Assembly (NCBI RefSeq): GCF_003074135.1
Contig: NZ_PPDK01000002.1
Location: 62,001 to 126,000, forward strand
Length of the DNA: 64,000 bases
Direction of reading: 5' to 3'
Origin: Euzebya tangerina
Lineage (GTDB): Bacteria; Actinomycetota; Nitriliruptoria; Euzebyales; Euzebyaceae
Shown: in pieces, positions 373-6,428 of the stretch
Layout of the letters: the number at the start of each line of letters is the position of its first letter
Numbering within the stretch: position 1 is the stretch's first letter
Program-made: the position numbers and the translations under genes
Notes under the pieces: generated by a model
Told to the model about the DNA's origin: nothing
Seen by the model: the letters and a program-made list of their open reading frames with translations, nothing else
Databases searched by the model: none

Positions 373-1365
373 TCAGGTCCACGACCGCTCACCGCGCTGG
401 TGCCAGTACACCTCCGGATCCATGGCCTCGGGACGGGTCGCCGGTGCTGCGTTCCGGGCGTGCAGGTTCGAGCGCAGGTGGTCCTCGGTGAGCACGCCGA
501 GCAGGACGACGTCGGCCACGCCGTCGCGCATCGCCGCGGATAGCGCCGCCGCGTCCGGAGACGGGTCGCGGGGGGCCACGTCTGTCGCGTGATCCCCGGC
601 GGGGGTCAGCCGGCCGTTGGCCAGCGCCTCCTTGACGACGACCAGCAAGCCCGCCTCCCGGGCTCGTCGGAGGGCTGGGCCGGTTGACCGCTCCAGGAGG
701 TTCCACGTGGTCTGGACGGCATCGAACAGCGGCACTCCGCCGACCTCGACCTCGATGGCACGATCGATGATCGTCGGCTGGGACGGCCCGCTGGTGCTGA
801 GGCCGAGTGAGACACCCTGTTCCCGGAGTTCGGCCAACTCGGTGAGGACCGCCTGGTCATCCAGGACCGGGCTGTCCGGGGTGACCGAGTGGATCTGGTA
901 CAGGTCGGGCAGTCGACCGAGGGCGGCCAGGGTCTCGGTCCGCTGGCGTCGCAGGGTTTCGACGCCGTGATCTTTGACCTCATGCTCCTCGGCATCGACC
1001 TGCCAGTCGGCGACGTAGGTGTAGCCCCACTTGGAGGCCACGGTGATGTCGGTGGGTTGGCGGGTTTCCAACCAGCTGCCGAGGAACTCCTCGGCAGCTC
1101 CGTAGGAGCGCGCGGCGTCGACGTAGGTGATCCCGGCGCCGTAGGCGAGGTTCAGGATGTGGTGGGCGTGCTCCCTCATCGCCGCGCGATCGGTGTCCGG
1201 CAGGTCGGTGCCATGGCCGGTGGTGATGTAGCCCGGGCGGCCAAGTGCGGCCAGCCCGAGGCCCAGCCTGGCCGGCCCACCATCGAGGGCGCGGTTCGTC
1301 ACGACGAAGGGCGAGCGCGCCGGCAGGTCACCCGTCGCTGGTGCCCTGAGGGTCTCCTCATCCAT
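373..1365 (-). CDS. Aldo/keto reductase family oxidoreductase
   Basis: This 330-residue protein has the NAD(P)H-dependent aldo/keto reductase TIM-barrel pattern. The catalytic tetrad is visible as Asp83 and Tyr88 (in VDAARSYG), Lys112 (in ASKWGY) and His159 (in YQIHS). It would reduce carbonyls or oxidise alcohols in the cytosol; the substrate cannot be told from sequence. The ATG at 1363-1365 lies 8 nt after a CAGAGT box on the same strand, compatible with a leaderless start. It is divergent from the secreted carboxypeptidase gene and convergent with gltX. Family assignment is firm; physiological role is unknown. Confidence 0.85.
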   Translation of the reverse strand: MDEETLRAPATGDLPARSPFVVTNRALDGGPARLGLGLAALGRPGYITTGHGTDLPDTDRAAMREHAHHILNLAYGAGITYVDAARSYGAAEEFLGSWLETRQPTDITVASKWGYTYVADWQVDAEEHEVKDHGVETLRRQRTETLAALGRLPDLYQIHSVTPDSPVLDDQAVLTELAELREQGVSLGLSTSGPSQPTIIDRAIEVEVGGVPLFDAVQTTWNLLERSTGPALRRAREAGLLVVVKEALANGRLTPAGDHATDVAPRDPSPDAAALSAAMRDGVADVVLLGVLTEDHLRSNLHARNAAPATRPEAMDPEVYWHQRGERSWT

Positions 1366-1526
1366 TGGATGTCACTCTGCCACGCCCGTCCGAACGGACG
1401 ATCGAGATATCCACAGGGCGCTTGCTCGGTGTCACAGATTGCCTCTACGGTTCATCATGCCGCACACGGGGTGCGCCACGGGGAGTTGGTCCGGGTGCAA
1501 CCACGCCGAAACCGATCGGAGAACCG

Positions 1527-4500
1527 ATGGAACAGCTGACATCTGGACACCTGGGACGCCTGCTGGGGGTGGTCCTGCTGGTGGGCCTCCTCCTTCCAGG
1601 GATCGCCGTCGCGCAGCAGCCGGACGAGGGGCCCGACTCCGACCGACTGAACCCCGAGCTGCAGGCCGGTGTTCGCGCCGATGACATTCCGGATGTGCCC
1701 CAGCGCGACGCAACGGCCCCTGCGTCGTCGGAGTTCGCGCAGCCGGTGGCGGCCTTCGCCGGCGAGGGGTGCCCCCTCAGCCTGTACCCGGAGGATCCGG
1801 CCGATGCCGCAGCGGCGCTGGGCATCACGCCGTACCACGAGCTGGCGCCTCGCCTGTGTGAGGCGGCCGGCGCCTCGGCTCGTATCAGCCTCGAGGTGGG
1901 CGGCACCAGCGTCGAAGGCCGCGAGGTACCGGTCGTGACGATCACCCGGTCGTGGTCCGAGGAGTTGCGTGCGGCCAACGATGCGCTGCGAGACCTGTTG
2001 GTGGAAGACCCGGAGGCGGCTGCAGACCTCCGTGCGGAGGGTGGCTACGACGGCTATCGGCCAACCATCATGGCGATCTCCAACATCCACGGGGACGAGT
2101 ACGAGGGACTTGACGCCTCCCTCGACTTCGTCGAGTACCTGGTCGATGCGGAGCCGGACGCACCGATCGTGCAGAACACGGAGGGCCTGTCGGAGGAGGA
2201 GATCTCCGCGCTGCCGACGGTGACCGAGGTCCTGTCCGACTACGTCATCACGCTGATGCCGACGACCAACCCAGACGGCCGCGTCACGGGCCAGCGGAGG
2301 AACGCCAACGGGTTCGACCTGAACCGCGACCACATCACCGGCTCGCAGCCGGAGACGCGGATCATACGGGAGGTGATCACCGAGCAGCAGCCGATGCTGT
2401 TCCTGGACATCCACGGCTACGTCGGGCCCGGTGGCCTGATCGAGCCGACCACACCCCCGCACAACTTCGCCTACGAGTACGACCTGTACATCCAGGGCGC
2501 GCTGCCAACCGCGCTGTCGATGGAGTCAGAGGCCTTCCGCCGCCAGATCATCCCCGACGTGACCGGAGAGACGTCGACGAACATCCCGTATCGCGACCTC
2601 GAGCAGAGCTGGGACGACTGGCCCCCGATCTTCACGGCGATGTACGCCATCTTCCACGGGGGTAGCGGTCACACGGTCGAGATGCCGTCCCAGCCCGCCC
2701 TGGACGTGATCGGCCCGGCCGAGAGGGAACTTCGCGTGACCTCCAACACCGAGTTCGCTCGCGCCGCCATCGACGGCACGATCATCGAGGGGGTCAGCAG
2801 CCGGGACGCGCTGCTCGAGCGCCAGCTCGAGTGGCACCTGCGTGGCGTTGCGGGTGCGTCACAGAACAACGAGGCCCTGGTGGGCGAATTCGAGGGCTAT
2901 GACGAGCTCGACGTGTGGACCACCGACTACCCCGACGCCTACATCATCCCGGTCGGTGAGGCGCAGGAGAGCGACGCGGCGGCCGCGGTGCTCGTCGACG
3001 CGCTGCTCAGTCAACGGGTGGAGGTGACCCAGCTGGTCGAGCCGACGGAGATCCGCGGGACGGAGTACCCGGCCGGCACCTACGTGGTGAACATGCGACA
3101 GGCCAAGCGCGCCGTCGCTCAGACAATGCTCGACGTGGGCCAGGACATCACACCGCGCGGCATCGAGTTCATGTACGACATCTCGGGATGGAGTCATGCC
3201 GACCTCTGGGGTGCCACGGTCTTCAGGACGGGTACCGAGCCGGGCGGTCTCGACCCGGTCGGAACACCGGTCACCGAGACACCGGCCCTGGGGCAGGTCC
3301 TTCCGGGGCCAGCGGATGCCTACGCCTTCGAGCTCGTGGACGAGGCTGCCATCCGGACGCTGAACCGGCTGCTCGAGGCCGAGGTCACGATCCATCGCGC
3401 GCCGGACGGCCGGATGCTGGTGGCGCCCTCCGCCCGTCCGCTCATGCAGGAGATCGCCGTCGACGAGGACGTGACCTTCGTGCCGCTGGAAGGATTGCCG
3501 GATGGACGCCGCCAGGTCCTACCCACCACCGTGGGCACGACCAGCACCGGTCCGGACGCCTACGTGCTGTCTGAGATCCTCGGCTTCCCGACCATCCCGC
3601 TCGACGCGGCCGCCATCAACGACGGCGATGCACTGGACGACGCTGATGCGCTGCTGCTGGACGTCTTTCCCGAGGGAATGACAACGGCCGGCACCGACAA
3701 CATCAACGACTTCCTCGACGACGGTGGAGGCGCCGTGGCCAGCAACGGCGGTGTCGGGTTGCTCGACCAGTCCGACATCACCGTTCCAAGTCGGGTCTTC
3801 GTCGCCGGGCTCAGCAACGGCACCGTCCTGGTGGAGCAGCGAGACGACTCACCCGTCATGCCCGACCGGCCGGAACAGGATGTGACCTTCGCCTACCCGC
3901 CAACCGTCTTCACCGACGTGCCCGATGGCTGGAACACCGAGCAAACCGTCCTGCCCGGATCGGCCGGAGGTGTCTTCCGGGCCGGTCACTGGGCCCAGAA
4001 CGAGGAGGGGACCCTCGACCAGGCCGACTACGTCGGCGAGCCCCTGACGCTCTCCGGTGAGTTGGACATCGGTGGGCGCGTGGTCGTGACCGGCGCCGAT
4101 GTCACGTTCCGCGACCACACCAAGGGCCTGTACAAGGATCTGGCTGACTGGATCATCTGGACCACGATCGGTGAGGAGACGACCGCGGACCTCGGCGGTC
4201 CGCTCCCCGACATCGTGGAGCGGGTGTCGGGTGACAACCGCGTCGAGACCGCTGTTGAGCTCTCGCGGCGGGCGTACCCCGACAGTTCCGAGGTCGCCGT
4301 CATCGCTGCCGCGGGGACCTTCCCCGATGCACTGAGCGCCGGTCCCTACGCCGCGTCCCTCGATGCCCCGGTGCTGCTGACGGATACTGCGGACGTCCCC
4401 GACGTGCTCGTCGACGAGCTGCAGCGGCTGGACCCGTCGCAGATCGTGGTGATCGGCGGAACCGTGGCGGTGTCGGAGGATGCGGCATCTCTTCTGGATG

Positions 4501-5099
4501 AGATCGCTCCGGTCACGCGGATCGCCGGTCCGGATCGGTACAGCACCTCAGCGCTGGTCTCCCAGGCCTTCGCCGAACCGGGCGTCCGCGTCGTGCTGGC
4601 AACCGGCGAGGCCTTCCCCGACGCTCTGGCCGGCGGTGTGTTGGCCGGGGCAGGCGATGGACCGGTGCTGCTGACCCGTCCTGGGGACCTGCCCCAATCG
4701 ACAGCTGAGGAGTTGGCCCGCTTGGAACCCGCTGAGGTCCTTGTGATGGGCGGTCCGGCTGCGGTGGCGGACGAGACCGTCGCGGCCGTGGACACCGCCT
4801 CCGACACGACGGCACGGCGTATCGCGGGTGGCAACCGGTTCGAGACGGCGGTGGCGGCAGCCCGTGAACTCGGCCCGGTCGGCAGCGTGTACCTGGCGAC
4901 CGGGTCGGCCTTCGCCGATGCGCTGGCTGCCGTTCCGGTTGCGCTCCAGGCCAACGGTGCCATCTTGCTGGTGCAGCCGGATGCCGTCCCCGAACCGGTC
5001 ATGGCGCTCCTCGACGAGCTGGAACCGTTCGAGACCCTGATTCTCGGCGGAACGGCTGCCGTCTCCGCGGATGTGGAGGCGTCGCTCACGCCCGACTGA
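1527..5099 (+). CDS. Secreted M14-type zinc carboxypeptidase with three CWB2 repeats
   Basis: The start was set at the ATG at 1527 because it has GGAG just upstream and opens a signal peptide (residues 1-29, ending AVAQ); a longer in-frame extension to 1365 looks non-coding. The 1190-residue product has an M14 carboxypeptidase domain at about residues 130-390. Zinc ligands are His188 and Glu191 (HGDE) and His296 (LDIHGY), and a likely catalytic Glu385 lies in VEMPS. Residues about 395-890 match no family I recognise. The last 295 residues are three CWB2 repeats (VSGDNRVETA, IAGPDRYSTS, IAGGNRFETA), which hold proteins non-covalently on the cell wall. It probably trims peptides outside the cell. 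The same anchor type ends the two giant proteins at 49-64 kb. Confidence 0.88.
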   Translation: MEQLTSGHLGRLLGVVLLVGLLLPGIAVAQQPDEGPDSDRLNPELQAGVRADDIPDVPQRDATAPASSEFAQPVAAFAGEGCPLSLYPEDPADAAAALGITPYHELAPRLCEAAGASARISLEVGGTSVEGREVPVVTITRSWSEELRAANDALRDLLVEDPEAAADLRAEGGYDGYRPTIMAISNIHGDEYEGLDASLDFVEYLVDAEPDAPIVQNTEGLSEEEISALPTVTEVLSDYVITLMPTTNPDGRVTGQRRNANGFDLNRDHITGSQPETRIIREVITEQQPMLFLDIHGYVGPGGLIEPTTPPHNFAYEYDLYIQGALPTALSMESEAFRRQIIPDVTGETSTNIPYRDLEQSWDDWPPIFTAMYAIFHGGSGHTVEMPSQPALDVIGPAERELRVTSNTEFARAAIDGTIIEGVSSRDALLERQLEWHLRGVAGASQNNEALVGEFEGYDELDVWTTDYPDAYIIPVGEAQESDAAAAVLVDALLSQRVEVTQLVEPTEIRGTEYPAGTYVVNMRQAKRAVAQTMLDVGQDITPRGIEFMYDISGWSHADLWGATVFRTGTEPGGLDPVGTPVTETPALGQVLPGPADAYAFELVDEAAIRTLNRLLEAEVTIHRAPDGRMLVAPSARPLMQEIAVDEDVTFVPLEGLPDGRRQVLPTTVGTTSTGPDAYVLSEILGFPTIPLDAAAINDGDALDDADALLLDVFPEGMTTAGTDNINDFLDDGGGAVASNGGVGLLDQSDITVPSRVFVAGLSNGTVLVEQRDDSPVMPDRPEQDVTFAYPPTVFTDVPDGWNTEQTVLPGSAGGVFRAGHWAQNEEGTLDQADYVGEPLTLSGELDIGGRVVVTGADVTFRDHTKGLYKDLADWIIWTTIGEETTADLGGPLPDIVERVSGDNRVETAVELSRRAYPDSSEVAVIAAAGTFPDALSAGPYAASLDAPVLLTDTADVPDVLVDELQRLDPSQIVVIGGTVAVSEDAASLLDEIAPVTRIAGPDRYSTSALVSQAFAEPGVRVVLATGEAFPDALAGGVLAGAGDGPVLLTRPGDLPQSTAEELARLEPAEVLVMGGPAAVADETVAAVDTASDTTARRIAGGNRFETAVAAARELGPVGSVYLATGSAFADALAAVPVALQANGAILLVQPDAVPEPVMALLDELEPFETLILGGTAAVSADVEASLTPD

Positions 5100-5128: not shown

Positions 5129-5144
5129 TCGAACACATGTTCTA
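5129..5144. promoter_or_regulatory. LexA-like SOS box overlapping the alkB-type promoter
   Basis: The sequence TCGAACACATGTTCTA matches the actinobacterial LexA operator TCGAAC-N4-GTTCGA at 11 of 12 positions outside the spacer. It overlaps the start of a TATAGT -10 box (5143-5148) that sits 7 nt before the ATG at 5156. LexA bound here would block RNA polymerase directly, so the downstream gene should be induced by DNA damage. Confidence 0.75.
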
Positions 5145-5155
5145 TAGTTCGGGGT

Positions 5156-5782
5156 ATGGCTCCAACTCTCGCGCCCAGCCGGCAAGGATCGCTGTTCGAC
5201 GCCGGTCATGCCCCCACCCATGATCCGTCCTTCGCCTCGCTCCGCCGGGAGCAGCTGACGCGGGGCGCCTGGGTCGACATCGCTCGTGGCTGGGCGCTGG
5301 GCCACGACGCTCTGTTCGAGCAGGTGCTCGACGCCGCCGACTGGGCAGTCCACCGGCGGGAGATGTTCGAGCAGATGGTCGACCAACCGCGGCTGTCCAC
5401 CAGTTGGGTGGGGGAGGAGTTGCCGCCGGGCCTTGCGGTCATTCGCCAGATGGCCACCGACCTCTCCTTGCGCTACGGGGCCAGGCTGGACCGCATCTCG
5501 GCGAACCTGTACCGCGACGGTCAGGACAGCGTTGCCTGGCACGGGGACACGCACCTGCGTGATCAGCCCACGGCGACCGTGGCCGTGGTCTCGCTGGGCT
5601 ACCCGAGGCCGTTCAAGCTCCGCCCCCGCGGGGGCGGCGAGTCCCTCAGCTGGCGTCTGGGGCAGGGTGACCTGGCCGTGATGGGCGGTACCTGCCAGCG
5701 GACCTGGCAGCACGCCGTGCCGAAGGTCGCCAAGGCCGGCCCCCGGATCTGTGTCATGTTCCGCACCGCGGACATCGGCTGA
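5156..5782 (+). CDS. alkB: AlkB-family 2-oxoglutarate/Fe(II) DNA dealkylase
   Basis: This 208-residue protein has the AlkB pattern. Asn117 and Tyr119 precede the iron site HxD (His129, Asp131), the distal iron ligand is His186 (TWQHAV), and the 2-oxoglutarate-binding arginines are Arg197 and Arg203 (RICVMFR, in the place of the usual RxNxTxR). AlkB enzymes oxidatively remove alkyl groups from N1-methyladenine and N3-methylcytosine. The ATG follows a -10 box by 7 nt with no ribosome-binding site, so translation is probably leaderless. The LexA-like box over the promoter supports a damage-response role. Alkyl repair genes in other bacteria are often under Ada control, so LexA control here would be notable. 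Confidence 0.88.
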   Translation: MAPTLAPSRQGSLFDAGHAPTHDPSFASLRREQLTRGAWVDIARGWALGHDALFEQVLDAADWAVHRREMFEQMVDQPRLSTSWVGEELPPGLAVIRQMATDLSLRYGARLDRISANLYRDGQDSVAWHGDTHLRDQPTATVAVVSLGYPRPFKLRPRGGGESLSWRLGQGDLAVMGGTCQRTWQHAVPKVAKAGPRICVMFRTADIG

Positions 5783-5807: not shown

Positions 5808-6428
5808 ATGGAGTTCACAGAGGTCGTCCGCCGCCGCCGAATGGTCAGGGACTACGACCCCGACCGCGAGGTCAGCGACGACGTGGTCCGGCGGGCCTTG
5901 GAGGCTGCGATCCGTGCCCCCTCCGCCGGGTTCAGCCAGGGCTGGGACTTCCTGGTGCTCCGGACGGCCGAGGACCGTCAGCGGTACTGGGATGTGACGG
6001 CCGAGGACGGTGAGCCCGACACCTGGCTGACCGGCATGACGAAGGCACCCGTCCTGATCGTCTGCCTCGGCAACGAGGACGCCTACTACGACCGGTACGC
6101 CGAGCCGGACAAGGGCGGCCTCAGCCGAGAGGACAAGCACTGGCCGGTCGACTACTGGGACGTCGACACCGGCATGGCCGCGCTGTTGATCCTGCAGACG
6201 GCGGTGGACGAGGGGTTGGGCGGCTGCCTCTTCGGCGTCCCCGTCGACAAGCACGCTGCAGTTCGCGACGCCTTCGACATCCCGGCCAACCGGTCCTTCG
6301 TCGGCGTCGTCAGCCTCGGCTACCCGGCGCAGGACGAGACGCGACTGGGGAGTGATCGGACTCGCGACCGCCGGGGCGTCGCCGACGTCGCGCATGAGGG
6401 CCGCTTCGGCCGCCCACTCCGGTCCTGA
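5808..6428 (+). CDS. Nitroreductase-family FMN oxidoreductase
   Basis: This 206-residue protein begins with the nitroreductase N-terminal block (EVVRRRRMVRDYDPDREV) that contacts FMN phosphate, and continues with APSAGFSQGWDFLVL. The C-terminal EGLGGCLFGVP and VVSLGYPAQDE segments are also typical. Members reduce nitro compounds, quinones or flavins with NAD(P)H. The ATG at 5808 lies 7 nt after TAGCTT, so the start is probably leaderless and an upstream in-frame extension was rejected. It follows alkB by 25 nt on the same strand but appears to have its own promoter. Substrate unknown. Confidence 0.85.
   Translation: MEFTEVVRRRRMVRDYDPDREVSDDVVRRALEAAIRAPSAGFSQGWDFLVLRTAEDRQRYWDVTAEDGEPDTWLTGMTKAPVLIVCLGNEDAYYDRYAEPDKGGLSREDKHWPVDYWDVDTGMAALLILQTAVDEGLGGCLFGVPVDKHAAVRDAFDIPANRSFVGVVSLGYPAQDETRLGSDRTRDRRGVADVAHEGRFGRPLRS

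Follow-up and report, generated by a model that had tools for sequence, protein, structure and literature searches.

In E. coli, alkB forms an operon with ada and is under Ada control. SOS control of alkB is documented in two actinobacteria. The alkB gene of S. venezuelae (vnz_32390) carries a LexA ChIP-seq peak and shows an 11-fold RNA-seq change after exposure to mitomycin C, with a LexA site reported at −20 and listed as GGTTACGCTGGATC (PMC9380542). In M. tuberculosis, Rv1000c, a putative AlkB, is counted among the SOS-box genes, and its control by LexA is supported by transcriptomics, proteomics and the presence of an SOS box (PMC8151990, PMC7911356); its induction by mitomycin C is RecA-dependent, with a part of the induction persisting in the absence of RecA and PafBC (PMC8151990), and it is induced 8-fold by moxifloxacin (PMC7911356). 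The lexA gene of the same organism is both SOS-regulated and leaderless, its transcription and translation starts being coincident (PMC2897130).

The alkB gene analysed here, from an actinobacterium of the class Nitriliruptoria, is with high probability a further member of this group: an SOS-regulon gene repressed by LexA, released upon DNA damage, transcribed without a leader and encoding an AlkB/ALKBH3-like enzyme. It resembles Rv1000c as an SOS-boxed putative AlkB, a likeness that does not derive from computed orthology, and the lexA gene of M. tuberculosis as a leaderless gene of SOS type, the known case in that organism being lexA and not alkB.

Architecture of the alkB locus

The features of the locus are given below in the coordinates of the window, i.e. 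the whole 64 000-nucleotide stretch of DNA that was analysed.

5129–5144, plus strand: predicted LexA operator (SOS box), TCGAACACATGTTCTA, read from the sequence
5130–5143, plus strand: 14 bp core of the operator, CGAACACATGTTCT, with one mismatch to the perfect palindrome CGAAC-N4-GTTCG
5143–5148, plus strand: −10 promoter element TATAGT, of the TANNNT class, overlapping the operator
5149–5155, plus strand: spacer TCGGGGT, seven bases, from the −10 element to the ATG
5156–5782, plus strand: alkB, Fe(II)/2-oxoglutarate dioxygenase of 208 amino acids, with a predicted leaderless start at ATG 5156
5808–6428, plus strand: nitroreductase-family gene (PF00881, E = 4.8e-23), with a likely start at ATG 5808

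The operator is of the CGAAC-N4-GTTCG type and is located 12 nt upstream of the alkB start codon. The single altered base of its core, the last one (G to T), is at the same time the first T of the −10 element, and the resulting GTTCT junction is common to all four genomes of the genus. The first-pass annotation had described an operator overlapping a −10 element that ends 7 nt before the ATG (5156–5158), and both this layout and its coordinates agree with the sequence. The operator also matches the LexA consensus of S. venezuelae, tCGAAC-N4-GNNCGa (PMC9380542); whereas the alkB site of that organism is degenerate, the operator described here is close to perfect and merges with the −10 element. 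The gene directly upstream (1365–5099), on the same strand as alkB, encodes a large zinc carboxypeptidase of family M14 that contains three cell-wall-binding repeats of type 2.

Since ATG 5156 is the first ATG, GTG or TTG codon after the in-frame stop, the start of alkB is not a choice among several. The −10 element precedes it by 7 nt, leaving no room for a Shine–Dalgarno sequence, as expected for a leaderless transcript. No −35 element could be recognized, and a scan with the σ70 consensus gave no full promoter at alkB.

The encoded protein matches the AlkB-type family PF13532 with 61.2 bits (curated cut-off 31.2; E = 2.1e-16), in keeping with the initial identification of the gene, and aligns with human ALKBH3 in a search of PDB sequences (E = 4.6e-11); the NCBIfam search returned no family for it. 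Residues His129, Asp131, His186, Arg197 and Arg203 are invariant in an alignment of 28 homologues and correspond to the residues that bind iron and 2-oxoglutarate in AlkB enzymes, namely the HxD…H iron ligands and two arginines, one binding 2-oxoglutarate and the other of AlkB type. The AlphaFold model (pLDDT 89, pTM 0.87) displays the AlkB fold, superposing best on ALKBH3 (Z = 22.3 over 177 residues, r.m.s.d. 2.3), followed by ALKBH2 (Z = 20.8) and E. coli AlkB (Z = 18.6). The family assignment suggests 1-methyladenine and 3-methylcytosine in DNA as likely substrates.

The likely start of the nitroreductase gene is found 25 nt past the alkB stop codon, and no terminator was found in a search between the two genes; the nitroreductase gene may be read through from the alkB promoter. 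A conserved alkB–nitroreductase operon was considered and rejected, as the nitroreductase gene adjoins alkB in no other homologous locus. Its presence here is probably incidental.

The operator in the genome and among homologues

Within the window the operator motif, allowing two mismatches, is no commoner than expected by chance (11 occurrences against 9.7 expected), and the window by itself therefore proves little. A genome-wide scan for the same operator, as proposed in the first-pass annotation, was more informative: the pattern CGAACNNNNGTTYK occurs at 21 places, against four for a reversed-pattern control, and the sites include those of recA and lexA. The genome encodes one LexA, with two operators upstream of its gene, while recA has one. 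Further operators precede a polymerase of PolIII-alpha type with a PHP domain (DnaE2-like), a UvrD-type helicase, a DEDD exonuclease/UvrC-like gene and a radical SAM gene of the Rv2578c type, the last with a 14-mer identical to that of alkB (L005:1501–1514; G000 C1:2277675–2277688, minus strand). By eye, the order of box, −10 element, 7 nt and start codon is common to four of these genes, namely alkB and the UvrD-like, DEDD-exonuclease/UvrC-like and radical SAM genes. As far as can be judged from its sequence, the genome carries a normal actinobacterial SOS regulon, of which alkB is a predicted member.

Some additional sites were noted in the course of the scan. The radical SAM gene, with its start 7 nt after the −10 element, is predicted to be a second leaderless SOS gene. 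A perfect operator, CGAACATGTGTTCG, is located between two divergent open frames (L001:1501–1514; G000 C1:770933–770946), neither of which has a Pfam match and which are possible unknown SOS genes. Several perfect-palindrome matches, for example CGAACTCGAGTTCG at loci L017 and L018, fall within long open frames and probably reflect coding sequence, not operators.

The conservation of the operator was assessed in homologues drawn from two sources, 44 loci obtained by scanning species genomes and 60 relatives of the genome of the window; after removal of duplicates these gave 70 actinobacterial alkB genes. A perfect operator is present within 150 nt upstream of 35 of these 70 genes, compared with 0.09% of control windows drawn from the same loci, and an operator with at most one mismatch is present in 47 of the 70, compared with 1.2% of control windows; the homologues are related and thus not independent, and a few loci (L091, L062) were too truncated, or matched too far along, to be assessed. 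The boxed homologues span Nitriliruptoria, Acidimicrobiia, Pseudonocardia and others, the operator being lost in one sister family.

The distance between the operator and the −10 element varies across homologues from a one-base overlap to 11 bases, with a single outlier at 22. A −10-like hexamer (TANNNT) nevertheless precedes the start by 6–8 nt in 43 of the 44 boxed homologues whose start is usable, compared with a mean of 1.0 and a maximum of five in shuffles. The gap between the −10 element and the start is thus kept while the operator slides, indicating that the leaderless arrangement persists in loci where the operator has moved. Judging from these counts, the conserved unit is a putative leaderless promoter whose −10 element is overlapped or flanked by a predicted LexA operator.

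Proposed control of alkB and competing readings

In the undamaged cell, a LexA dimer bound to 5129–5144 would cover the upstream edge of the −10 element and exclude RNA polymerase. Upon damage, RecA would form filaments on single-stranded DNA and promote the self-cleavage of LexA, freeing the operator, and transcription would then initiate on the A of ATG 5156 or an adjacent base, yielding a leaderless mRNA. The AlkB/ALKBH3-like product would oxidatively remove the methyl group from N1-methyladenine and N3-methylcytosine. The repression of alkB by LexA and its release on damage, as anticipated from the sequence of the locus, is very probable, being strongly supported by the excess of genomic sites (21 against four), by the operators at recA and lexA, and by the 47 boxed homologues.

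Chance could in principle have produced the palindrome, with alkB being constitutive or responding to an Ada-type regulator alone. The chance-level frequency of the motif within the window and the existence of an Ada gene in the genome would agree with this, but it is hardly credible in view of the operators at recA and lexA and of the identical 14-mer at another SOS-type gene of the same genome; indeed, the recurrence of the operator in 47 of 70 homologues, against 1.2% of control windows, makes a chance origin untenable. The only gene with an Ada Zn-binding domain in the genome is an Ada-HTH-AlkA fusion on another contig (C1:1199562), near the start of which no LexA operator was found; alkB neither adjoins ada nor is co-transcribed with it, so that in this genome alkB is physically separated from the Ada-type response. 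In E. coli, with which the AlkB fold and catalytic residues are shared, alkB is joined with ada, whereas here it stands apart behind a LexA operator while Ada is fused to AlkA elsewhere.

The Ada-AlkA protein might still act in combination with LexA. Under such dual control, LexA would repress alkB and an alkylation-specific activator, or another damage regulator, would allow alkylating agents to induce the gene beyond the SOS response. Genes with an Ada Zn-binding domain occur in this genome and in 30 of 61 that were searched, and the AlkB of M. tuberculosis is still made after mitomycin C treatment in the absence of RecA and PafBC (PMC8151990), but inspection of the upstream sequences by eye revealed no conserved element beyond the operator and the −10, and we consider this arrangement unlikely. 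Less likely still is a transcription start further upstream, giving a short 5′ leader that contains the operator. The lack of a recognizable −35 element would be compatible with such a start, but the −10/start gap held at 6–8 nt despite the sliding operator, together with the lack of space for a Shine–Dalgarno sequence after the −10, argues against it. The leaderless start proposed in the first-pass annotation is thus strongly supported, as inferred from the position of the −10 element, and LexA control of a leaderless alkB is the preferred reading.

The same annotation had regarded SOS control as a different wiring of alkylation repair, which holds relative to E. coli only: with such control already documented in Streptomyces and M. 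tuberculosis, the locus is a well supported ordinary case and not a new wiring. It deepens a known fact and overturns nothing. Across the phylum, outside the E. coli paradigm, direct reversal of alkylation appears to be coupled to the general SOS alarm as well as to the Ada response, through a conserved layout in which the operator lies on or beside the −10 element and the start codon is at about +1.

Operator loss and degenerate boxes among relatives

Five alkB homologues from a family of the same order (f3; genomes G014, G016, G017, G018 and G027; loci L076, L078, L079, L084 and L089) have no operator upstream, and SOS control of alkB is therefore not universal in the order. By eye, all five retain a TANNNT hexamer about 7 nt upstream of a start. 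Canonical operators are still present at lexA in four of the five genomes; in the fifth, whose assembly is 83% complete, no match to LexA was obtained. In a maximum-likelihood tree, built on one short protein and with weakly supported deep forks, the five homologues cluster together (support 92/92) within the boxed ones, which suggests a single loss of the operator. Whether an SOS-controlled leaderless alkB was the ancestral actinobacterial state, from which this sister family departed by losing the operator alone, with the promoter and the LexA specificity retained, is in our estimate an evenly balanced question; if so, the family would show, in nature, a repair gene before and after its exit from the SOS regulon.

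In most of the Streptomyces and Micromonospora homologues the box is degenerate and carries two or three mismatches. Boxes such as CGTACACCTGTACC occupy a constant position ahead of the −10 element in Micromonospora (L038, L043, L044, L045 and L047) and in Streptomyces (L050 and L055), a hint of an altered LexA preference or of another regulator.
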